Shown here: positions 23,761 to 37,536 of the stretch, piece by piece
Layout: the number at the start of each line of letters is the position of its first letter
Position numbering within the stretch: position 1 is the stretch's first letter
Source of the DNA: Mycolicibacterium sarraceniae
Lineage (GTDB): Bacteria; Actinomycetota; Actinomycetes; Mycobacteriales; Mycobacteriaceae
NCBI RefSeq assembly: GCF_010731875.1
Contig: NZ_AP022595.1
Coordinates: forward strand, 4,588,001 to 4,652,000
Length of the DNA: 64,000 nucleotides
Direction: 5' to 3'
Translations under genes and position numbers: made by a program
The notes under the pieces: generated by a model
Told to the model about the DNA's origin: nothing
Seen by the model: only the letters and a program-made list of their open reading frames with translations
Database searches by the model: none

Positions 23761-24206
23761 GTGTCGGCTACTCCGATATCTTCGTTCCACAGTGCGGGGT
23801 TCTCGGCGATGAAATCCGTCATCATCGCCACGCAGCGTTCGTCGTCCAGCAGCGTCACGTCGACGCCGTGCTCGGCCAGCCAATCATGGCCACCGGTGAA
23901 GGTTTTGCTCTCGCCGATCAGCACCGCGCCGATGTTGAACTGGCGCACGAGCCCACTGCAGTACCAGCACGGTGAGAGCGTGGTGACCATGATCGTCGAG
24001 CGGTAATCGCGCTGACGGCCCGCCGCACGGAAGGCGTCGGTCTCGGCGTGCAGCGACGGGTCGCCCTGCTGCACCCGGCGGTTGTGCCCGCTACCCAGCA
24101 GCACCCCATCGGCGCTGAACAGCGCGGCACCGATCGGGATTCCACCTTCCGCCAGGCCCTTTCGAGCTTCCTCGTACGCGACCTCGAGCATCTCCAGCGG
24201 AGTCAT
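23757..24206 (-). CDS. Zinc-dependent nucleobase deaminase (cytosine/guanine deaminase-like)
   Basis: 149 residues from the ATG at 24206, which overlaps the permease stop as ATGA; this start also begins at the family's natural N-terminus (MTPLEMLEVAYEEARKGL). The zinc motif is complete: LHAETDAFRAAG supplies His and the catalytic Glu, and SPCWYCSGLV supplies the two cysteines. The fold is that of yeast-type cytosine deaminase and bacterial guanine deaminases. Together with the cytosine-type permease it suggests uptake and deamination of a base. Confidence 0.88.
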   Translation of the reverse strand: MTPLEMLEVAYEEARKGLAEGGIPIGAALFSADGVLLGSGHNRRVQQGDPSLHAETDAFRAAGRQRDYRSTIMVTTLSPCWYCSGLVRQFNIGAVLIGESKTFTGGHDWLAEHGVDVTLLDDERCVAMMTDFIAENPALWNEDIGVADT

Positions 24207-25612
24207 ACCGCGGTTCGTTCGGCGGCGATCTTCGATCGGCATAGCACAAGATAGCTCGCGCCGGCGATCAGGAAGCCCACGAAGAACGTGATGTCGCCGA
24301 GCTGGGGCAGCGTCCTGGCGATGTAGCCGACGAACTTCTCCTGGTTGGAGAACAGCAGCACCGAGACAACCAGGCCGACTGCGAAGGACGCGAATCCGCC
24401 CCAGTTGGCGTAGCTGCGGTCATAGAGGAATCCGGCGATCGACTGGCCCCGGCGCAGGTACTGATCGGCGAACACCACGCCGAGCCACGGACCGATCCAG
24501 TAGGCGATGATCAGCAGGAAGGCTTCGTAGCTGGCGGCCGCATCAGCCAGGGCCCACCAGGCGATCGCGAAACCTGCGACGCCGAAGAACACGGTGACCA
24601 GGGCACGGGCGATGTGGTGCGGAAGTTTGACCCCGATGGTCACGAAAGCCATTGCCCCGGAATAGATGTTGATGGCGTTGGCCGCAATAGCACCCACCGC
24701 GATGGCCAGCAGCGTGGCCTTGGCCAACGGCGAGGCCAGCTCGCTGGTGAACGCCTCGGTGGGGTTGTCGGACAGCGCCGGCCCGATGGTCACCGATGCG
24801 GCACCGACGGTCTCGAGGATCACGCACGACAGGAATAGCCCCATCGAGGCGAACAGCCCGGTGCGAGCCGTCGACACCGTGGCCGGCAGATATCGGGTGT
24901 AGTCGGCGGCGTAGGGCGTCCAGCCCGCGGCATAGCCGAAGGCGGTACCGACCGTCAGCAGGAAGCCACCGAGACCACCGACGCCACCGTCGACCGCGGG
25001 CGCGTCGAAGTGCGATTTGGTCAGGATCACCACGGAGGCGACGGTGAAGATCACCGCGAGCACCGGGAACGACCAGCGTTCGAAGGCTTGGACCAGGTTG
25101 TGACCGAAGAATGCGAAGGCTGTCTGGATCAACACGATGATGACGAGCGCCGGCAGCGGCCCGATGTGGAACAGAGTGGACAGGGCGAACGCACCGCTGA
25201 CGCTGTTGGTGGCGAACCACCCGACGCCCGCGGTCACCGACATCAGTACCGACGGCACCGCGTTGCCCTTGAAGCCGAACGCCATCCGGCCCAGCACCAT
25301 CTGTGGCACACCGTGCAACGGGCCGCGGGCCGACAGGAAGTAGTGCGCGACCGCGCCCAGACCGGTGCCGATCACGATGCCGACGACGGCCTGCCAGAAC
25401 GACATCCCGTAGACGGCCACTGCGAGCACACCCACGAAGATCGTCGCGAATTCGAGGTTGGGTGAGGTCCACGTCCAGAACAGCTGACTCGGCTTGCCGT
25501 GGCGGTCTTCGTGGGCGATGAACTCGTTGCCACCGGGTTCGACGGCCACCAACTTGTCGCGGTAGGTGCCGTCGGTCTGCACGCTCGGCTCAGTCGGGTC
25601 AGCCACTGTCAT
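24203..25612 (-). CDS. NCS1-family cytosine/purine permease
   Basis: 469 residues with about twelve membrane segments. Family blocks include PNLEFATIFVGVLAV, RMAFGFKGNAVPSVL, GYAAGWTPYAADYTRYLP (the NCS1 substrate-site helix) and YWIGPWLGVVFADQYLRRGQ. It is the first gene of a three-gene operon, permease-deaminase-2OG oxygenase, in which each junction is a 4-base stop-start overlap. It imports a nucleobase or related compound by cation symport. Substrate identity is inferred only from the deaminase partner. Confidence 0.93.
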   Translation of the reverse strand: MTVADPTEPSVQTDGTYRDKLVAVEPGGNEFIAHEDRHGKPSQLFWTWTSPNLEFATIFVGVLAVAVYGMSFWQAVVGIVIGTGLGAVAHYFLSARGPLHGVPQMVLGRMAFGFKGNAVPSVLMSVTAGVGWFATNSVSGAFALSTLFHIGPLPALVIIVLIQTAFAFFGHNLVQAFERWSFPVLAVIFTVASVVILTKSHFDAPAVDGGVGGLGGFLLTVGTAFGYAAGWTPYAADYTRYLPATVSTARTGLFASMGLFLSCVILETVGAASVTIGPALSDNPTEAFTSELASPLAKATLLAIAVGAIAANAINIYSGAMAFVTIGVKLPHHIARALVTVFFGVAGFAIAWWALADAAASYEAFLLIIAYWIGPWLGVVFADQYLRRGQSIAGFLYDRSYANWGGFASFAVGLVVSVLLFSNQEKFVGYIARTLPQLGDITFFVGFLIAGASYLVLCRSKIAAERTAV

Positions 25613-25658
25613 GGCTACAAGGTTGTACCTGACGCCCCGGCGCGCAACCGGAAGGCGA

Positions 25659-25720
25659 AAGTTAGTCGAACTTGGGGCGCCGCGATCCGCGTCCGCTTGA
25701 GCTCCCAGAAGTGCGTGGCC
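25659..25720 (-). pseudogene. Duplicated 3' end of the DsbA-like gene (copy A)
   Basis: The minus strand encodes HFWELKRTRIAAPQVRL, matching the last residues ([16 protein letters not shown]) of the intact DsbA-like gene at 31147-31755. Only about 60 bases are recognisable. It lies just upstream of the permease start and is the most diverged of four copies in the next 6 kb. Confidence 0.5.
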
Positions 25721-25904
25721 CTCGGGCGTCGCTGCACGTGACGACTACGGCCTGACCCGCGACGCCGAATTCAAGGACCACCACGTCGTGGCGCGAGTGA
25801 TGGGGGCATCCATGCCGAAACCGCGGTCGGCTGGCCGACCTCGTGTCGGACCTGACGCACAAATCTCCCCGGGTTCGGATCCGAATTGTCCTGGGCTCGC
25901 GACC

Positions 25905-26039
25905 GAACATAGTTCGACATATCTTTGCGCTAATAACTTTCGACAGTTAAGTGTCAACATCAATAACGGATACAAAAATTTGCTGTTGAAACGACATTCA
26001 CATACTAGAGAGTTTCGGCGAGAACATCACAATCACTCC
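25905..26039 (+). repeat. AT-rich leader, copy A of three
   Basis: A sharply AT-rich stretch in an otherwise high-GC window (TTCGACATATCTTTGCGCTA, ACATCAATAACGGATAC). It resembles segments at 28222-28345 and 29990-30080 in composition and in shared words (ATATCTTTGC, TCAATA, GAATAA/AATAACGG). Each lies upstream of an intact or decayed secreted-protein gene, so it probably carries a promoter or a silencer-binding site. Confidence 0.5.
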
Positions 26040-26590
26040 GCTGGCGCTTGCTGCCGCAAGTTTTTCACGGCGCGGCGAATGCAGGCATCGACGTAAACGG
26101 GACCTACTAGGACACGACGTCGGGCGTCTTTCAGACGCCGATTATCACAACCTCGGTTACTGGCACCGCACCGGGCTCGGTGACTGCGCGCTCACCAGTA
26201 GTCATTTCCGTTGCATCGGCTTAATTTACGGTCTGGCATTCGGCATCCGGTTTCCGAGCACAAATATCACCAACATGAAGATGCTCATCCAGATCCGGCG
26301 AATTCGATATATGTGTGCGCTAGCACATCTGGCAACACCGTCTCCGGCCCGACGGCTTTAGGAGGCGATATGTCGCGCAGACCATACCCGGTCCAATTCC
26401 TGGTGGCTCGTCCTGCACGACGCCTGCGGTCAACGCGAACGCGTCGGTCACCGCCGCCCGCTCGGTTGCCAGCCAGTATGCCGACACTAGAACCTCGGCA
26501 TGAGCTTCGACCACGATCATTGCGGGAATGCACCCGTGACAACCAAGTGCTACCCGGGTCCTCGCCAGCGCGACCGCTGCCCAAGCTCTG
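26040..26590 (+). pseudogene. Decayed paralog of the 205-residue secreted protein
   Basis: The DNA aligns by eye, with many indels, to the intact gene at 30186-30803. Shared words include ACAACCTCGGT, CACCGGGCTCGGTGAC, AACATGAAGATG (for AACATGCAGATG), ACACCGCCTGCGGTCA-like and GCAAGTATGCCGGCAC-like segments, in the same order and spacing. Stops and frameshifts break every frame. It is followed by about 690 bases with nothing recognisable. Confidence 0.65.
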
Positions 26591-27282
26591 CAAGTCGGAC
26601 ACACCGGCGGATAGCGGACGACGAACAGCTGACTGCACGCATGGTCGGCGCTGACCGAGTTGGGGTCGGATTCAGCGGGCGATGTGGACGACCGTAGCGG
26701 TGAATGGCTCTCGACGTGGCAGCCCAGGCGGGCATCGTTGCTATTTCCCAGTCGCAGTCGAATGGCGGCCATCCTCTCCCCAGTTCTTTATCGGAGCTCT
26801 TGAAATTCGTCCGCCAATGGTCCTGTGCCGCACCATCGGCGACTCTCGGGAGATAGCGTTTACCATCAGAATTTGCCAAACATATTTCCATAAACTCGGG
26901 AGAATGGAAGGACGACTGATGCCGTTAATAACGCGCGATTCACACTCGCGTTTTCCGACAAGGACTCCAACTCTGCGGGGTTATGAAACACCAATCAGCC
27001 GGGTTGCATACAGGACTGCGCTCCCCGATGAGACGATCGCGCGCACCGGTCTTGGTTGCCGAATACCGACACACGCTGGCCCAATTCGGCCCAAACCCCG
27101 CGTTGCCCGCAGGCCGACCGCACCAGTGTTGGTGTGGCGCTGCGGCTGAATCCGTCAGCGGCGCGTGTTGCCAGCCAAGTTCGCTGTCGCCCCTTCGAGT
27201 ACCCGTGTCGATAAACGCCACGAAGGCCACTCGATCATGCGTATGATGAAGCTCCACCACAAAGAAAAGCCAACGGTCAGCA
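26591..27282. other. No recognisable gene
   Basis: About 690 bases with only short frames on both strands and no family similarity that I can see. Local GC falls in 26760-26960. It may be further decayed material of the duplicated locus. Confidence 0.5.
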
Positions 27283-27322
27283 GAACCGGGTCAAGCCCAG
27301 GCTGGGGAGGTCTTTTCATCGG

Positions 27323-27808
27323 ATGCCAACCGAACTCGCTCGGATCTCGGTAATGCTCAAGAGAAAAATGGAAGCACTTCATGCGTCCTCCGACGACGTA
27401 GCCCGCGAACTGGTGCGAGTGCTCGGCGTCAATCAAACAGACCGACGCGCCCTGGAACTCATCCTCTGCGCCGGCGAGAAGGTCATGACACCAGGACTTC
27501 TCGCCGACCAGCTCGGCCTCACCGCCGCCGGCACCACGATCGCCCTCGACCGCCTCGAAAAACTCGGCTACGTCACCCGTTCCCAACACCCCACCGATCA
27601 CCGCCGAGTAATCGTGGTAGCCACCGAGCTCGCCGCCCGCCGCGTCTCCGAACTCCTCGCCCCCCTACTGAGCCACGGCGGCAAAGTGCTGTTCAGCCAC
27701 TACAACCCAGCCGAACTCGCTCTCATCATCGACTTCCTCACCCGCACCGACGAACTACAACAAGAACACGTGAACCGAATGCGCGAACTCGATCCCTACC
27801 CCCACTAG
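27323..27808 (+). CDS. MarR-family transcriptional regulator
   Basis: 161 residues from the ATG at 27323; ATG 27353 is another possible start. The winged helix lies around residues 50-100: VMTPGLLADQLGLTAAGTTI then ALDRLEKLGYVTRSQHPTDH with RRVIVV as the wing, a standard MarR pattern. The C-terminal helix (LALIIDFLTRTDELQQEHVN) would dimerise. A shortened second copy lies at 30996-31137. Its target may be the adjacent secreted-protein gene or itself; this is a guess from position. Confidence 0.85.
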   Translation: MPTELARISVMLKRKMEALHASSDDVARELVRVLGVNQTDRRALELILCAGEKVMTPGLLADQLGLTAAGTTIALDRLEKLGYVTRSQHPTDHRRVIVVATELAARRVSELLAPLLSHGGKVLFSHYNPAELALIIDFLTRTDELQQEHVNRMRELDPYPH

Positions 27809-28084
27809 GGTTCGCCCGCTCAGTCGAATTGCGGCGGCTCCATATGAGACCGCTTCAACTCCCAAAGTGCGGATTGGCCGCAGACGTCACCGAGATGTCC
27901 CACAGCTTGCCGGCTTCCTCACCGCGCGGACTGCGCGGCGACACCGCACCACGGAAACGCGACCCCGTTTGAGGTGAATCGTCGGCGTGATGACTCTTGC
28001 GCAGAGCGTCGTCATACGACGGGTCCGCCGCAGCCTTGGCCAATCCGGCGGGAAGACCGACTCCGTCCAGCGACTATGCGACGG
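27809..28084 (-). pseudogene. Duplicated 3' part of the DsbA-like gene (copy B)
   Basis: The minus strand aligns closely with 31138-31443, the last third of the intact DsbA-like gene, over words such as TTCGCCCGCTCAGTCGAATT and CTTGCGCAGAGCGTCGTC. A 33-base deletion and single-base indels break the frame, and the thioredoxin active site is not included. It cannot make a functional protein. Confidence 0.8.
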
Positions 28085-28462
28085 CCGATCCAGGCTTGAA
28101 AATGGTTGCGTTATCGCGTGATTGCACTCACCTCGACCACGTCGGGTCCGGCAAGTACCGGGATGTCACCGCCGGCAGGTGGCTTGCCACCTCCCCTGAC
28201 TCTGGCAAGTGAGCCTTCGCCGCTCGAGCATATTCAGTATTCAACGCCTTGCTATCAATAGCTTTATGTAGTTAATTATCTTAAATCGATAACTTTCTGT
28301 CGTTAACTTTCAACATCGAATAACGGCCAGGGACGCGAGACTTTTCCCAGGAGAGACACCACCCAGCTGAGAAATTCTCAAAAACTCCGGCGAAATCGGT
28401 CCCGGCAGCGATCGGGGTGAAGTAATTTACGAGTTCAGGTTACCGATGATTGGGGCAGAGCA
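28085..28462 (+). promoter_or_regulatory. Intergenic leader with AT-rich element, copy B
   Basis: The segment 28222-28345 is very AT-rich (TATTCAGTATTCAACGCC, TTGCTATCAATAGCTTTAT, TTAACTTTCAACATCGAATA) and is related to the leaders at 25905 and 29990. It contains nested inverted words around ATCAATAGCTTTATGTAG. It ends about 120 bases before the secreted-protein start at 28463, so it probably contains the promoter. Confidence 0.5.
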
Positions 28463-29593
28463 ATGCAAACGTTTGTACGGACCAGCATGACCGGCGGCGT
28501 GGCACTGATCGGAGCGAGCGCCATCGCGCTGTCACCGCTAGTGGTGACACCGCAGCAGGTGCACCCGCCGGCGATCCCGGTCTCGAGCATCGCGGCCACG
28601 TTGACCGCGTCGACGACCTCGATGGTCGATCCCTTCACCGAGTGGGTGCAGGTCCTGACGACCACGTTCAACAACCTGGCGGCCATCGGCCAACAGATAC
28701 AGGCCAGCCCTGCTCCCATCCTCAAGCAGATCATCGCCAACCAGATCGGCTACGCCACCACCATCTCCACAGCGCTCGGCAACGCCGGCGGCGCCTTTGT
28801 CGCGGCCGCGAAGGCACTTCCCTCGGCTCTCCTTCAGGCAGCTCAACAAGTGGCCGCCGGCCAGATCAGCGCTGGCCTGTCCACGGCATACACCGCCGCG
28901 CTCGCACTGGTGGTATCCCCCGGCTTCGCACTGATACAAAGTCCGATACTCAACATCCCCGGCCAGGTTTTGCAGAACATCACCAACTTCGTCAACCTCG
29001 TCCCCACTTTTGTTGGGACACTGGGCCTTTCTGCGCTCTACACGGCTAGCGGCGTCGAGAGCGCGTTTGGGGATACCGCGCAAGCGGTGTACGACGCGGT
29101 GGGCGCCGGCGATTTCGGGGCGGCGGTGAACGCGATCGTCAACGCCCCTGCCGTGCTCACCAACGCCTTCCTCAACGGGTATGCACCGGCGGCGTCATGG
29201 GGGATTCTGACTCCGGTCACCTCCGGAACTGGCTTGGTCCCCGTATTTATCGGCTTTCGCGACCTCTTCGCGCAAAAGCTGGGCGCACCGGTGTCATCCA
29301 CGGCGGCGGCGGTCACGTCCTCCCGCGCGGCCGCAGCCCCACCGACACCGGCCGCCACGGTGACACTGGACACCACCCCCGCCACCGCCACCGCCAGCCC
29401 ACGAACCGCGACGAGCACGCGCGGCACAGCGAGCACAAAAGCCACACCCGCGGCAGCCGACAACACCAGCGCGGGCAGCGAAAACAACACACAGCCCGCC
29501 GAGACTCATAACACCCACGGAGCTGCCGCAGGCGGCTCCACAAGCACCGGCTCCTCAGCACGAAAAGCGGGACACGCCAACCGCACACACTAG
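28463..29593 (+). CDS. Mycobacterial secreted protein with Ala/Thr-rich tail
   Basis: 376 residues from the ATG at 28463, with GGGGCAG upstream. A signal-like N-terminus (TSMTGGVALIGASAIALSPL) is followed by a helical domain of about 230 residues with conserved-looking patches (DPFTEWVQVLTTTFNNLAAI, ILKQIIANQIGYATTI, NIPGQVLQNITNFVNLV). The last 100 residues are low-complexity Ala, Thr, Ser and Pro. Proteins of this kind occur in families in mycobacteria without assigned function. The tail suggests a cell-wall or surface location and possible glycosylation; this is inference. Confidence 0.75.
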   Translation: MQTFVRTSMTGGVALIGASAIALSPLVVTPQQVHPPAIPVSSIAATLTASTTSMVDPFTEWVQVLTTTFNNLAAIGQQIQASPAPILKQIIANQIGYATTISTALGNAGGAFVAAAKALPSALLQAAQQVAAGQISAGLSTAYTAALALVVSPGFALIQSPILNIPGQVLQNITNFVNLVPTFVGTLGLSALYTASGVESAFGDTAQAVYDAVGAGDFGAAVNAIVNAPAVLTNAFLNGYAPAASWGILTPVTSGTGLVPVFIGFRDLFAQKLGAPVSSTAAAVTSSRAAAAPPTPAATVTLDTTPATATASPRTATSTRGTASTKATPAAADNTSAGSENNTQPAETHNTHGAAAGGSTSTGSSARKAGHANRTH

Positions 29594-29636
29594 GAACTCA
29601 CCCCGTCGGCCGGAATGCAGCGGCCTAGGACGAAAC

Positions 29637-29755
29637 CTCCACCGCGCGGAATACGGGACAACGCCGGACCGAAGAGCGCAACCCCGCCGACATGAAGCAT
29701 CGGCATACCGACATCCCCGCCGACCGCGTCCAAAACCCCGGCGGCGACCGCCGCC
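29637..29755 (-). pseudogene. Duplicated internal piece of the DsbA-like gene (copy C)
   Basis: About 120 bases resemble 31250-31360 of the intact gene (ACCGCGCGGAATACGGGACA against ACCGCGCGGAATGCGCGACA, followed by CGGACCGAAGAGCGCAACCC and ATCGGCATACCGACATCC). It is more diverged than copy B. Frame is not kept. Confidence 0.6.
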
Positions 29756-29989
29756 ACCAAGGACGGCAGTAAGGCGGTACCGGGCGCTCTCGTTCATGCG
29801 GGCTCCATCCGCGTTGTTCTGCGTCTGCGGCCAGGTCTCGGGCGTCGATGCGTTGAGTGGCGAGGACTGCGAGATGGGTAGCCTCGGCGCCGACAAGGCG
29901 ACCCCTTCGACGGCGAAGCCTGACACATCCGCCAGGGCGGACCCACACCTCGACAGGTCCTCGACTTTTCGCGCAGTCCCCAAGAGTGC

Positions 29990-30080
29990 ACGTCCACAAT
30001 TATTCTGTATTCAATATCTTTGCAGCAATAGCTTTCATTTGCGAATTATCAATAGCGAATAATGGACGCGACACTGCCAT
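29990..30080 (+). repeat. AT-rich leader, copy C of three
   Basis: TATTCTGTATTCAATATCTT, then TTGCAGCAATAGCTTTCATT and CGAATAATGGACGCGACAC. The words match copy B (TATTCAGTATTCAA, TTGCTATCAATAGCTTTA, CGAATAACGGCCAGGGACGCGA) in order and spacing. It lies about 100 bases upstream of the 205-residue secreted protein. Confidence 0.6.
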
Positions 30081-30185
30081 CGAAACGTGTTCGAAATGTG
30101 CCGGGAATTTCCGCGGAGGCGAGATACATTTATCCGCGGCGCGGCACCCTGGCTACGTCGCTACCTTCACCGTTTGGAGAAGAAT

Positions 30186-30803
30186 ATGCGATCAAATACA
30201 TCCACGCTGCTTCGCGCTGGTGCCATCACTCCCATGGCCCTTGCCGCCGCACTTTGTTTCGCTGGGACGGCAAATGCAGCCGTCTCGGTGAACTGGAGCT
30301 GCCAGGCCTCGGCTGGGACGTCGAGCATGACAACCTCGGTCACCGGCACCGCGCCGGGCTCGGTGACCGCGGGTTCTCCTGTGGCCATTACCATCGCACC
30401 AGGTTCATCGACGGTGCCGACGAACCCAATCCCCCTTGTCACGGTCGTCAGCATCAGTAACATGCAGATGATCATCCCGGTCCCGGCCAACTCGACATAT
30501 GTCTCTTCCAGCGCATCCGGTGGAACATTCTCCGGTACGACTGCCCTCGTGGGCAGTAATGTCGTGCTTACCGTTGCCGGCCCGATTCCCGGTGGCTCGA
30601 CGTACACACCGCCTGCGGTCACCATCAACGTGACGGCCAACTCTCCCGGCTCGATTACCAGCAAGTATGCCGGCACCAGCTATTCCAACCCCGGCATGAC
30701 CTTCACCACGACAGTAAAACCAGTGATTGGTCCTAACTTCAATGTCGCAACCTCCTGCTACCCGAATCCTTCTCCGACACTCACCACCACGACTGTCACC
30801 TAA
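30186..30803 (+). CDS. Small secreted protein of unknown family
   Basis: 205 residues from the ATG at 30186, with GGAGAAG seven bases upstream. A clear signal peptide (TPMALAAALCFAGTANA) ends near residue 31. The mature part is Thr, Ser, Val, Pro and Gly-rich and strongly beta-predicted (TSVTGTAPGSVTAGSPVAIT, STYVSSSASGGTFSGTTALV). It has only two cysteines, in NWSCQA near the start and ATSCYPNP near the end, which could form one disulfide across an immunoglobulin-like sandwich. A decayed paralog lies at 26040-26590. Function unknown. Confidence 0.78.
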   Translation: MRSNTSTLLRAGAITPMALAAALCFAGTANAAVSVNWSCQASAGTSSMTTSVTGTAPGSVTAGSPVAITIAPGSSTVPTNPIPLVTVVSISNMQMIIPVPANSTYVSSSASGGTFSGTTALVGSNVVLTVAGPIPGGSTYTPPAVTINVTANSPGSITSKYAGTSYSNPGMTFTTTVKPVIGPNFNVATSCYPNPSPTLTTTTVT

Positions 30804-30995
30804 CCCTGCGGGTCGAATAGACCAGGTGCTGATCGGTTAGGCGGTGTGGGGAGGCTGGGGCCTCCCCGCGCCAACAAGCCCCGCGATCAAACCCCAAAAC
30901 GCCGGCCACACAACGCAATCTGGATACAGTCAGCCTTGCGCCTCAATGGAAACTGACTCGACCAGTCGGCACGGGCCGCTTGCCCTGGTATCGAC

Positions 30996-31137
30996 GAACC
31001 GGGTCAAGCCCAGGCTGGGGAGGTCTTTTCATCGGATGCCAACCGAACTCGCTTGGATCATCGACTTCCTCACCCGCACCGACGAACTACAACAAGAACA
31101 CGTGAACCGAATGCGCGAACTCGATCCCTACCTCCGG
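30996..31137 (+). pseudogene. MarR gene copy with 127-codon in-frame deletion
   Basis: The sequence repeats the MarR gene's start (MPTELA) and jumps straight to its end (IIDFLTRTDELQQEHVNRMR). The missing 381 bases are bounded in the intact copy by two direct repeats CCGAACTCGCT (27330-27340 and 27711-27721), and one copy remains here. The stop of the full gene is also lost, so the frame runs on antisense into the DsbA-like gene. The DNA-binding domain is gone. Confidence 0.8.
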
Positions 31138-31146
31138 TTCGCCCGC

Positions 31147-31755
31147 TCAGTCGAATTGCGGCGGCTCCGTACGAGACCGCTTCAACTCCCAAAAGTGCGG
31201 GTAGGCCGCAAACGTCACCGAAGCGTCCCACAACTTGCCGGCTTCCTCACCGCGCGGAATGCGCGACAACACCGGACCGAAAAACGCGACCCCCTTGACA
31301 TGAATCGTCGGCGTGCCGACATCCTCGCCCACGGCGTCCACCCCGGCGTGATGGCTCTTGCGCAGAGCGTCGTCGTACGACGGATCCGTCGCAGCCTTGG
31401 CCAACTCGGCGGGAAGGCCGGCCTCGTCCAGCGACTGCGCGATGACCTCGTCGAGGTTCTTGTTGTCCTGGTTGTGGATGCGGGTGCCCATAGCGGTGTA
31501 AAGCGGTCCGAGCGCCTCGGCGCCGTGGGCCTGCTCGGCAGCGATGGCGACCCGCACCGGACCCCACGCCTTCTTCATCATCTCTTGGTATTGCTCGGGC
31601 AGGTCGCGACCTTCGTTGAGCACCGCCAGGCTCATCACGTGAAAGCTGACATCGATATCGCGGACCTTCTCCACCTCGAGAATCCAGCGGGAGGTGATCC
31701 AACACCACGGACACAGCGGGTCGAACCAGAAATCGGCGCGTGACTTCTCGGACAT
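31147..31755 (-). CDS. Mycothiol-linked DsbA-family oxidoreductase (Rv2466c-like)
   Basis: 202 residues from the ATG at 31755, with GAGGAG six bases upstream. The thioredoxin fold has the active-site motif [14 protein letters not shown] near residue 13-24, a DsbA-type helical insert, and the cis-Pro region [10 protein letters not shown]. tuberculosis Rv2466c is a mycothiol-dependent reductase of this family that also activates a thienopyrimidine prodrug. It diverges from pepN, as in M. tuberculosis. Pieces of its 3' end are scattered three times upstream along the chromosome. Confidence 0.92.
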
Positions 31756-31840
31756 GCGGGCTCCTCCTCGCGGTTGACGCAGATCTTCATCACAACTCAT
31801 GTCAATAGAACACTGTTCCCGCTCCCGCTAGGTTGGACGC

Positions 31841-34411
31841 GTGGCACTTCCCAACCTCACCCGTGACGAGGCCATCGAGCGCGCTGCTCTGGTCACCGTC
31901 GGCAATTACCGCATCGATCTGGACCTGACTTCCGGGGAAAAGACCTTCCGGTCGACCACGACCGTCGAGTTCGAGGCGGTGCCGGGGGCCGATACCGTCA
32001 TCGACCTGGCCGCCGACACCGTGCACAGCGCCGTGCTCAATGGAGTTGAGATCGACGTGTCGGGGTATGACGAGTCCACCGGCATCCCGCTGGAAGGCCT
32101 GGCCCAGACCAACGTCCTCGTGGTCGAGGCCGACTGCCGCTACTCCAACACCGGCGAAGGCCTGCACCGGTTCGTCGACCCGGTCGACAGCGAGGTCTAC
32201 CTGTACTCGCAGTTCGAAACCGCCGACGCCAAGCGGATGTTCGCCTGCTTCGACCAGCCTGACCTCAAGGCGACCTTCGATGTGACGGTCACCGCGCCGT
32301 CGCACTGGCAGGTGATCTCCAACGGCGCGACCAGCACCGTCGAGGAAAACGGCAAGGTGAAGGCCCACACCTTCGCCACCACCCCGCGGATGAGCACCTA
32401 TCTGGTCGCGCTGATCGCGGGTCCCTACGCGCGCTGGGATGACGTCTACGCCGACGAGCATGGCGAGATCCCGCTGGGCCTGTTCTGCCGGTCCTCACTG
32501 GCGGAGTACATGGACGCCGAGCGGCTGTTCAGCGAGACCAAGCAGGGCTTCGGGTTCTATCACCGCAACTTCGGCGTGCCGTACGCGTTCGGCAAGTACG
32601 ACCAGTTGTTCGTGCCCGAATTCAACGCCGGCGCAATGGAGAACGCCGGCGCGGTGACCTTCTTGGAGGACTACGTCTTCCGGTCCAAGGTCACCCGGTA
32701 CAGCTATGAGCGCCGGGCTGAGACGGTGCTGCACGAGATGGCACACATGTGGTTCGGCGATCTGGTGACGATGACCTGGTGGGACGACCTGTGGCTCAAC
32801 GAGTCGTTCGCGACGTTCGCCTCGGTGCTCTGCCAGGCCGAGGCCACCGAGTATGACCAGGCGTGGACCACGTTCGCCAACGTGGAGAAGTCCTGGGCCT
32901 ACCGTCAAGACCAGCTGCCCTCGACCCATCCGGTCGCCGCCGACATCCCCGACCTGCACGCTGTCGAGGTCAACTTCGACGGCATCACCTATGCCAAGGG
33001 TGCCAGCGTCCTCAAGCAACTCGTGGCCTATGTCGGGTTGGAGCACTTCCTGTCCGGGCTGCGCGACTACTTCGCCGCGCACGCCTTCGACAACGCGACA
33101 TTCGATGATCTGTTGGGCGCGCTGGAGAAGGCCTCGGGCCGCGACCTGTCCGACTGGGGTCGGCAGTGGCTCAAGACCACCGGGCTCAACACGCTGCGCG
33201 CCGACTTCGACGTCGACGCCGACGGCCGTTTCACCCGCTTCGCGATCGCGCAGGGCGGTGCCGCACCCGGTGCCGGCGAGACCCGTGTGCACCGGCTCGC
33301 GGTCGGCATCTACGACGACGACCCGATGACGGGCAAGCTGGTCCGAGTGCACCGCGAGGAACTCGACGTATCCGGCGCGTTGACGGATGTTCCTGCGCTG
33401 CAAGGTGTTTCGCGCGGCAAGCTGATCCTTGTCAACGATGACGACCTGACCTACTGCTCACTGCGGCTCGACGACGCGTCACTGCAGACCGCGCTGAGCC
33501 GGACTGCCGATATTGAGGAACCGCTGCCCCGCACGCTGGTGTGGTCGGCGGCGTGGGAGATGACCCGCGATGCCGAGCTGACCGCGCGGGACTTCGTGGC
33601 CCTGGTGATGAGCGGCGTTCAGGCCGAATCCGAGGTCGGGGTGGCTCAGCGGCTGCTGCTGCAGGCGCAGACCGCGCTGAACTCCTACGCCGACCCGGCG
33701 TGGGCGTGCGCCAACGGCTGGCCGGCGTTCGCCGACCGGCTGCTGGACCTGGCCCGGGAATCGGCCCCGGGGTCGGACCACCAGCTGGCGTTCGTCAACG
33801 CGCTGTGCACCTCGGTGCTGCAGCTGAACCACGTCGCGGTGCTGGCGACGCTGCTGGACGGTGAGCCTGCCGAGGTGAACCTCGCTGGCCTGGTGATCGA
33901 CACCGATCTACGCTGGCGCATCGTCACCGCGCTGGCCGCCGCCGGTGACATCGACGGCGACGGTCCCCAGACGCCATTCCTGGACGCTGAAGCCGCCAAC
34001 GATCCGACCGCGGCCGGTCGCCGGCACGCCGCCGCGGCGGCCGCGGCCCGTCCGCAGCTCGCCGTTAAGCAAGCCGCGTGGCAGCAGGTGATCGAGGACG
34101 ACACACTGGCCAATATCACCGCGCGGGCGATCATCGGCGGGTTCGCCCCGGCCGGGCAGGCCGCGCTGCTGCAGCCGTTCACAGCACACTATTTCGAGGC
34201 GATCCCGGGAGTTTGGGAGCGCCGGTCCAGCGAGGTGGCGCAGACCGTGGTGATCGGCCTGTACCCGTCGTGGGATATCAGCTCCGAGGCTTTGGCGGCT
34301 GCGGACACATTCCTCGACGGCGAGCTGCCGTCCGCACTGCGGCGGCTAGTTCTGGAAGGCCGGGCCGGCGTCGAGCGGTCGTTGAAGGCGCGCGCCTTCG
34401 ACGCAAGCTAG
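31841..34411 (+). CDS. pepN: Aminopeptidase N (M1 family)
   Basis: 856 residues from a GTG at 31841. The exopeptidase motif GAMEN is at residues 264-268, and the zinc site HEMAHMWFGD starts at His298 with the third ligand in NESFATF. The long alpha-helical C-terminal domain is complete. It removes N-terminal residues from peptides in the cytosol, downstream of Clp and proteasome action. It diverges from the oxidoreductase gene. Confidence 0.97.
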   Translation: MALPNLTRDEAIERAALVTVGNYRIDLDLTSGEKTFRSTTTVEFEAVPGADTVIDLAADTVHSAVLNGVEIDVSGYDESTGIPLEGLAQTNVLVVEADCRYSNTGEGLHRFVDPVDSEVYLYSQFETADAKRMFACFDQPDLKATFDVTVTAPSHWQVISNGATSTVEENGKVKAHTFATTPRMSTYLVALIAGPYARWDDVYADEHGEIPLGLFCRSSLAEYMDAERLFSETKQGFGFYHRNFGVPYAFGKYDQLFVPEFNAGAMENAGAVTFLEDYVFRSKVTRYSYERRAETVLHEMAHMWFGDLVTMTWWDDLWLNESFATFASVLCQAEATEYDQAWTTFANVEKSWAYRQDQLPSTHPVAADIPDLHAVEVNFDGITYAKGASVLKQLVAYVGLEHFLSGLRDYFAAHAFDNATFDDLLGALEKASGRDLSDWGRQWLKTTGLNTLRADFDVDADGRFTRFAIAQGGAAPGAGETRVHRLAVGIYDDDPMTGKLVRVHREELDVSGALTDVPALQGVSRGKLILVNDDDLTYCSLRLDDASLQTALSRTADIEEPLPRTLVWSAAWEMTRDAELTARDFVALVMSGVQAESEVGVAQRLLLQAQTALNSYADPAWACANGWPAFADRLLDLARESAPGSDHQLAFVNALCTSVLQLNHVAVLATLLDGEPAEVNLAGLVIDTDLRWRIVTALAAAGDIDGDGPQTPFLDAEAANDPTAAGRRHAAAAAAARPQLAVKQAAWQQVIEDDTLANITARAIIGGFAPAGQAALLQPFTAHYFEAIPGVWERRSSEVAQTVVIGLYPSWDISSEALAAADTFLDGELPSALRRLVLEGRAGVERSLKARAFDAS

Positions 34412-36691: not shown

Positions 36692-37400
36692 CCCACCCTG
36701 CGTGGCGGACCCGCGCGATGTCGATCCCCTGTTCGGCGGGCTGGCCGCACTCGAGCGGCGGATCACCGCGGCCCACGCCCGGGGCATCCGGATCACCATG
36801 GACCTGATGCCCAACCACACCAGTTCTGCGCACACCTGGTGTCAGGCCGCCCCGGGAAGCATTGAGCGAGAACGGTATATCTTCCGGGATGGCAGGGCGC
36901 GGGACGGAGGGCAGGGGCGCAGCGACCCGGGAATCGAGCCAGGCTCGATGTCGCGCACGGGATGGCCGAGCCGCCCGGACTGCCGGATATGGCCAACCCC
37001 GATGTCGGGATGCTCACCCTCGATGACGACGATCCCCGGTTCAATCACGACGCCGTTCACGAGATCCACCGCGGCATCCGTTCGGTGCTCGACGATTACC
37101 CGGATGCGGTGACGATCGGCCAGATCTGGGTGTTCGAGAACGAAGACTTCGCCAAGTATCTGCGCCCCGACGAACTGCACATGGGGTTCAGCTTTCGTTT
37201 GGCACGAGCCGAATTCGACGTCACCAGCATCCGCGTCGCGATCGAGAACGCGCTGGCAGCGGCCGCGACGGTTGTCGGGTGCCGCTGCCGTGGGCGGGCG
37301 ACACTCCCCCGTTCGGCTTTTCGACGAACCCTGACACCTGGCTGCCGATGCCGGCGCCCGTTGATCGACGGCGAGCTGGCGCCGGATTCGGCCGCGTGGA
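36692..37400 (+). pseudogene. aglA: aglA alpha-glucosidase (GH13) remnant
   Basis: Three frames in sequence give pieces of one GH13 alpha-glucosidase: VADPRDVDPLFGGLAALERR with ITMDLMPNHTSSAHTW (the conserved DxxxNH region); then PDVGMLTLDDDDPRFNHDAV, VTIGQIWVFENEDFAKYLRP and SFRLARAEFD; then LPWAGDTPPFGFSTNPDTWL. The N-terminus, catalytic Asp region and much of the barrel are deleted. M. tuberculosis has intact aglA (Rv2471) right after glbO, so this is the decayed ortholog. Confidence 0.8.
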
Positions 37401-37536
37401 TCGCGACGGGCTAGATACCGGAGCCGATCACGTTCACCACGGAGCCGACGATGACCGCCCCGAAAACGAACGACGCGGGCCGCGGGGGTCTTCCCGAACG
37501 ACAGCGTGCCGTGCGGGGTCTGAGCCATCCGGGCTC
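37401..37536 (-). other. Possible frameshifted small membrane-protein gene
   Basis: On the minus strand an ATG at 37528 begins AQTPHGTLSFGKTPAARV. Shifted by one base, the region then reads FVFGAVIVGSVVNVIGSGI and a stop. Joined together this would be a roughly 40-residue protein with one membrane helix. A single-base indel, or simple chance, would explain it. Confidence 0.25.

Follow-up and report, generated by a model that had tools for sequence, protein, structure and literature searches.

Extra dsbA 3′ ends and a probably horizontally moved cluster of predicted secreted-protein genes in Mycolicibacterium sarraceniae

How does the 3′ end of a single gene come to be repeated several times among unrelated genes? 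The question is raised by the interval between a cytosine/purine permease gene (codB) and pepN in Mycolicibacterium sarraceniae (G000 below; a single contig of 4.83 Mb, NZ_AP022595.1), analysed here in a window of 64,000 nucleotides (the whole stretch of DNA considered, positions 4,588,001-4,652,000). The interval includes one intact dsbA gene and three additional dsbA 3′ ends, termed tail0, tail2 and tail1 from left to right. It also holds an intact and a truncated gene for a MarR-family regulator, two unrelated intact genes for predicted secreted proteins (SecB and SecC) and a decayed copy of the SecC gene.

We favour an answer to which, taken as a whole, we assign a probability of roughly 0.57. 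The stretch would be the remains of a reduced array, in which a cluster consisting of MarR, leader-SecB, leader-SecC and MarR stood against the dsbA 3′ end. This cluster would have arrived together with a dsbA allele through homologous recombination that used dsbA as its anchor, and the native dsbA end and part of a pepN gene would have been left beside the permease gene as tail0. Tail2 and tail1 would be older direct duplications, most likely resulting from insertions of IS1634-family insertion sequence (IS) elements, which can duplicate hundreds of target bases, and later deletion would have trimmed the duplicated ends. The MarR-tail2 and MarR remnant-dsbA stretches appear to have been copied or homogenised recently, and MarR probably controls the secreted-protein genes via AT-rich leaders. 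The parts of this locus are ordinary. Their combination, a dsbA-anchored and apparently horizontally moved surface-protein cluster with scars common to several species, is unusual.

The features are listed below by window position and strand. Each dsbA end, the SecC copy and the pepN piece were scored against 200 dinucleotide shuffles, and their scores are given against the maximum of this null; the MarR remnant and the leaders were assessed by identity and alignment, without a shuffle test.

24203..25612, minus strand: cytosine/purine permease gene (codB-like), left flank; Pfam PF02133
25664..25715, minus strand: tail0, copy of the last 52 nt of dsbA; score 26 against 18
25753..25835, plus strand: internal fragment of pepN, 83 nt; 33 against 19 with the pepN of the same genome
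25880..26030, plus strand: leader A, AT-rich; repeat family D10, alignment
26032..26516, plus strand: decayed SecC copy matching 30225-30711; 162 against 17, 68% identity over 500 columns
27323..27808, plus strand: intact MarR-family regulator gene; PF12802 at 41.7 bits (cut-off 27)
27809..28084, minus strand: tail2, dsbA 3′ end; 153 against 17, 87.7% of 261 nt identical to the intact dsbA
28085..28206, plus strand: probable relic of an IS1634-family transposase gene (residues about 150-190); shuffles and window scan
28218..28462, plus strand: leader B, whose degenerate dyad is a candidate MarR operator; eight leader B sequences aligned
28463..29593, plus strand: SecB gene, predicted secreted, helical, distantly GjpA-like protein; NCBIfam GjpA below its cut-off
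29640..29743, minus strand: tail1, fragment of the dsbA 3′ end; 64 against 18
29981..30185, plus strand: leader C; 13 leader C sequences aligned
30186..30803, plus strand: SecC gene, intact, predicted secreted beta-sandwich protein
30996..31135, plus strand: MarR remnant with an internal deletion; 98% and 95% identical to two MarR segments
31147..31800, minus strand: intact dsbA/Rv2466c-like gene; PF22234 at 313 bits, allele in common with CH28
31841..34411, plus strand: pepN, right flank, of native type; PF01433 and others, tree grouping

The repeats are real. In self-alignment all three dsbA ends and the SecC copy exceed every shuffled score, as had been anticipated in an earlier description of this DNA made from the sequence alone (the original prediction). 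The MarR remnant is 98% identical over 64 nt to 27283-27346 and 95% identical over 97 nt to 27707-27803, with a deletion in between, so two MarR copies are indeed present, and three AT-rich leaders are related through repeat families D7 and D10. The recurring order of leader, secreted-protein gene, MarR and dsbA end is complete twice, but the middle unit has no MarR. SecC and its decayed copy form a pair, and SecB of the middle unit is unrelated to both. Divergence was expected to rise with the distance from the intact dsbA, and it does not. The closest copy is the one at 27.8 kb, followed by the one at 29.6 kb (76% of 105 nt or 83% of 93 nt, depending on the alignment) and the one at 25.7 kb (38 of 52 nt). 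The interval was placed between rpiB and pepN; pepN is its right neighbour, but the immediate left neighbour is the permease gene. Two further features had escaped notice: the pepN fragment beside the leftmost copy and the probable IS1634-type relic after the 27.8-kb copy.

The same prediction held that repeated segmental duplication in place makes and loses secreted-protein genes, perhaps forming a hot spot of surface variation. Duplication, decay and breakpoints within the dsbA 3′ end are all borne out, and the structure does differ at the same place in the relative Mycolicibacterium sp. CH28 (G180), where the MarR remnant and almost the whole 27.8-kb copy are missing and an IS is present. 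But local duplication alone is insufficient. SecB and SecC are unrelated to each other and are already paired in clusters that other species carry at different loci, so they were not produced by duplication at this locus; and CH28 is the only one among 52 other genomes to have the cluster at dsbA. We therefore regard in-place duplication as an improbable explanation of the whole, and surface variation as the function of the locus stays a conjecture.

The 52 dsbA loci were obtained as 45 and 7, some of the 45 having just 1.5 kb of flank or being ended by a contig edge. In cluster-free relatives (G024, G004, G018, DL592, anyangense, M26 and NBC_00419; read at loci L034, L035, L182 and L206-L209) the permease gene directly adjoins dsbA. 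FastTree trees of 16 genomes were built for dsbA (601 nt), codB and pepN. In the dsbA tree M. sarraceniae groups with CH28 (support 1.000), the next relatives being DL592, anyangense, M26 and NBC_00419 (0.973). The pepN tree joins M. sarraceniae with G018 (0.991) inside the clade of G024 and G004 (0.952), and the codB tree places it with G024 and G004 (0.947; inner node 0.064), with CH28 beside anyangense (0.746). The identities between M. sarraceniae and CH28 are 93.6-93.7% for dsbA, 85.2% for codB and 87.9% for pepN. The affinity of dsbA is thus to CH28 and that of the two flanking genes to other species, which points to an imported dsbA; its horizontal replacement is read from the conflict of the dsbA tree with the trees of both flanks. 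Near position 31747 the identity to CH28 drops (56% of 75 nt). A protein search found the closest DsbA, at 99% identity, in a genome putatively of M. helvum. The simplest reading of these sequence comparisons is that the dsbA allele of M. sarraceniae was imported, perhaps with the cluster, and that the native end was left by the permease gene.

Tail0 is probably that original native end. Compared with 55 dsbA genes, it is closest to those of G018 (L010, 86.5%), G007 (L020) and G024 (L002; 84.6% for the latter two). The pepN fragment next to it also scores 41 against a null maximum of 18 with the dsbA-pepN region of CH28 and is about equally close to pepN of G018 (81%) and DL592 (82%). A piece of pepN beside the leftmost copy implies that more than dsbA once stood there.

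If one dsbA end was displaced by an import, each of the scars might be a displaced resident end, left by a series of separate imports of cluster DNA, each joined by homology at one side and illegitimately at the opposite side. Such a series is compatible with the favoured account, which has one import, and it draws on the imported state of the present dsbA, on the affinity of tail0 to the G018, G007 and G024 genes and on the movement of SecB and SecC variants between species. The internal scars speak against it. Tail2 is closest to the present allele of M. sarraceniae and CH28 (87.7% and 85.8%; best other gene 76.6%), as is the CH28 copy of tail1 (83.1% and 81.0%; next 79.0%); tail1 of M. sarraceniae itself is a near tie (G004 77.1%, G000 76.2%). 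They have the appearance of copies made from a single dsbA lineage. Repeated imports thus seem to us rather unlikely.

The internal scars are probably older duplications. Tail2 turns at 28082-28085 into sequence found upstream of leader B. In Mycolicibacterium sp. CBMA 234 a decayed dsbA (L147 5286-5371; score 36 against a null maximum of 14 in 30 shuffles) turns at the same point into the same sequence, and M. komossense keeps about 24 nt of this scar (L144 6182-6205), recognised by alignment to M. sarraceniae rather than by a direct dsbA match. The right junction of tail2 is therefore found in three species, and in M. komossense and CBMA 234 the cluster lies away from dsbA. M. komossense has MarR′, leader-SecB, leader-SecC and MarR in this order, with no dsbA gene in the surrounding 20 kb; CBMA 234 has the same gene order, also with no dsbA gene beside it. 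The tail2 scar was probably in the cluster before the clusters of these lineages parted. CH28 has lost it except perhaps for some 20 nt after MarR, judged by eye. Tail1, between SecB and SecC, is common to M. sarraceniae and CH28 (L143 11952-12145) with an identical inner end, and was not detected in M. komossense or CBMA 234. The MarR-dsbA end stretch of M. sarraceniae seems to be a recent copy, with 94-98% identity.

This recent copy would also fit a tandem amplification, in which one insertion flanked by dsbA ends was multiplied by unequal crossing-over into units of SecB, SecC, MarR and dsbA end, followed by complementary losses: unit 1 would have kept the SecC pseudogene and MarR, unit 2 SecB, and unit 3 SecC and the MarR remnant. 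The order of the remnants suits three units split by dsbA ends, and the MarR′-scar-SecB-SecC-MarR arrangement of M. komossense and CBMA 234 would be a single unit preceded by the end of its neighbour. On the other side, no unit has its complete presumed content, tail1 sits between SecB and SecC, where no dsbA was detected in the roughly 800 nt of M. komossense, and the transposase relic is left unexplained. We consider this scheme unlikely.

The stop-codon end of dsbA is kept in tail0, tail2 and the CH28 tail1 (it is gone in tail1 of M. sarraceniae), resembling integration into the 3′ ends of genes. This could suggest that a site-specific integrating element uses the dsbA end as its attachment site and that the scars are copies of this site. 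Such an origin is highly improbable: attachment sites would not be expected to be as long and irregular as the scars, which reach 276 nt and differ in their inner ends (about 52, 202 and 301 nt), and no integrase was found among MarR, SecB, SecC and the fragments scanned, which cover part of the open reading frames (ORFs).

What could have duplicated the dsbA ends is suggested by CH28, whose cluster is interrupted by a 1764-nt element. It combines an IS1634-family transposase (NF033559 at 397.7 bits, cut-off 100), terminal inverted repeats (CCTGAGTTAGGACAT and CCTGACTTAGGTCAT) and a long direct repeat: an exact 376-nt duplication of leader C and the SecC start that adjoins the IS both on contig C1 and on contig C7, the two copies presumably flanking one IS copy. 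According to PMC2266710, IS1549 (M. smegmatis) and IS1634 (M. mycoides) of this family give direct repeats of 8-514 bp, a range that includes the CH28 repeat. Another copy of the element in CH28 is accompanied by a repeat of 244 nt. In M. sarraceniae one element, with a transposase sharing 60% identity with that of CH28, has an exact 381-nt flanking repeat, a further element has a 60-nt repeat, and a third match with ill-defined ends has one of 48 nt. IS1634-like copies were noted at positions 1990374-1992002 and 2392602-2397366 of the M. sarraceniae contig (G000:C1; L217 and L219), with one group adjacent or nested. On C1 of CH28, capsid- and protease-like ORFs (L128 2108-4179, by eye) adjoin the IS copy. 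A prophage at the CH28 locus was considered and set aside: since the IS occurs in several copies and the locus carries on in C7, the phage neighbours on C1 are likely a misjoin.

In the window, the sequence directly after tail2 (28085-28206) scores 63 against a null maximum of 46 with the CH28 transposase (150 shuffles), and the corresponding stretch of M. komossense at the shared scar (L144 6207-6425) scores 78 and 83 against 56 and 55 with two transposase pieces (150 shuffles); the DNA of the window relic agrees at 67.5% over 77 nt. When L144 and the window are scanned with the CH28 transposase, these relics are the best matches (E 3e-4 and 0.004, respectively). A weak match of IS1634 type thus adjoins the scar in both species. 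Weak transposase-like matches elsewhere in the locus, mostly to the C-terminal part of one M. sarraceniae transposase, were set aside. The long IS1634 repeats of CH28 and M. sarraceniae (376 and 381 nt), together with the relic after tail2, make IS1634 insertion a credible maker of the duplicated dsbA ends, the origin that we favour without regarding it as proven. In contrast to IS1549 and IS1634 themselves, the locus in the window shows only the probable transposase relic, without IS ends, and decayed duplications.

A number of observations weigh against the account given here. Concerning the IS, the window relic beats the shuffles with one of four transposase pieces (the other three score 48 against 48, 26 against 47 and 36 against 59), and the M. 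komossense relic with two of four. An unrelated site in L135, with no scar nearby, reaches 28.5 bits (E 0.008) compared with 31.2 bits for the window relic, so the latter alone would be weak. The relic begins at about residue 150 of the transposase, which makes the tail2 junction a deletion rather than the border of an IS. The interval 25601-31160 has no inverted-repeat end that comes within four mismatches of the CH28 one, and so none flanked by the two copies of the dsbA end; the relic and intergenic fragments have no Pfam or NCBIfam match. No relic was seen by the CBMA 234 scar or after MarR in CH28, and the CH28 transposase has no match after tail1 (29743-29990) or tail0 (25700-26030). Concerning the import, the identity drop at 31747 is partly a peculiarity of CH28, which shows 51-59% to three other compared genomes. 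The cluster genes of M. sarraceniae and CH28 (SecB 82.5%, SecC 85.7%, MarR 89.5%) diverge more than dsbA, so that co-transfer of the cluster with dsbA is not proven. The CH28 locus is spread over two contigs, its continuity being inferred. Tail0 is just 52 nt long, and the pepN piece comes from about 1.7 kb into pepN, beyond the reach of a 514-bp target duplication. Relationships within the cluster conflict as well: MarR of CH28 is closer to its counterpart in M. sarraceniae than to that in M. komossense (89.5 vs. 84.4%), and so are the CH28 leaders (C 85.0 vs. 81.7%, B 83.8 vs. 82.4%), while the order is reversed for SecB and SecC, whose CH28 copies are closer to M. komossense.

For SecC and SecB the identity between CH28 and M. 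komossense is 92.2% and 89.6%, compared with 80.5% for dsbA. Since SecB and SecC on the one hand and MarR and the leaders on the other point to different relatives, the cluster is a mosaic, and parts of it have moved horizontally. Its wider distribution is scattered. Of 396 genomes of the genus, 20 (M. sarraceniae among them; one gene partial) have a MarR with no less than 68% identity, and a SecC with at least 74% identity was found in 11 of 297, again counting M. sarraceniae. Nineteen MarR or cluster loci from 18 genomes fall into about 11 flank groups when compared by 3.5-kb flanks (E 1e-20), some loci containing MarR alone and one having no left flank. In a tblastn search of a plasmid collection there was no match for MarR (E limit 1e-15) or SecB, and SecC matched only two Streptomyces records (41% identity, 69% of the query); a plasmid-borne cluster was accordingly rejected.

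The locus may be read as a fossil record of cluster movement, with a probable displaced native end, an imported allele and a scar common to clusters that are now found elsewhere. In addition, it connects duplicated gene ends with the long target duplications of IS1634-type elements in a way that can be tested. We tentatively extend this to a general idea, doubtful as it is at present: IS1634/IS1549-type elements might act as gene-duplication engines, with the end of a host gene (here dsbA), copied by their unusually long target duplications, left beside passenger surface-protein genes after the IS decays and serving as a portable homology arm through which the cluster could enter or leave that gene by recombination in other species.

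One MarR, SecB and SecC are left intact in the window. MarR resembles regulators with linked targets in that its domain exceeds the Pfam cut-offs and dyads occur in the leaders of some species, but differs from the usual MarR systems in that the linked genes code for predicted secreted proteins that belong to no Pfam family. For the MarR system, all NCBIfam equivalogs stayed below their cut-offs. The sequences of leader B and of leader C each align well. The leader B dyad is a perfect palindrome with 11-nt arms in G275; it is perfect in two of the four species checked (G275 and M. komossense), and the window copy is degenerate. Leader C has a perfect palindrome with arms of at least 6 nt in one of four species. 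The leader B dyad is a candidate MarR operator, and we conjecture that MarR acts on the secreted-protein genes through the AT-rich leaders. A second MarR lineage with 46-51% identity to the window protein is found in 14 of 396 genomes (L067-L072 and further matches), and in two further genomes (L130 15710-17089 and L136 1533-2878) the MarR cluster likewise has distant CodB-type permeases (26-33%) in its vicinity, perhaps by chance.

The signal peptides of SecB and SecC were predicted by eye. SecB, which has no Pfam family, resembles the GjpA ‘outer membrane porin’ family (NCBIfam NF033942) over residues 12-268 (E 4.6e-8), but at 32.7 bits against a cut-off of 100 it is a distant relative at best; its structural model is helical and of low confidence (predicted local distance difference test, pLDDT, 57.5). 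SecC is modelled with confidence as a beta-sandwich (pLDDT 85.8). Its best structural match is 3lso, a putative membrane-anchored protein of Corynebacterium diphtheriae, with only 17% identity and only 44-210 of the 445-residue chain matched. A SecB paralogue is present elsewhere in M. sarraceniae (G000:C1:1318532-1318870; L032, L142 7227-8039), with 44% identity over residues 1-274. Further right in the window, 36701-37474 aligns to CH28 only in short, unevenly spaced pieces and resembles a decayed gene, which we take to be possibly that of a glycosidase.

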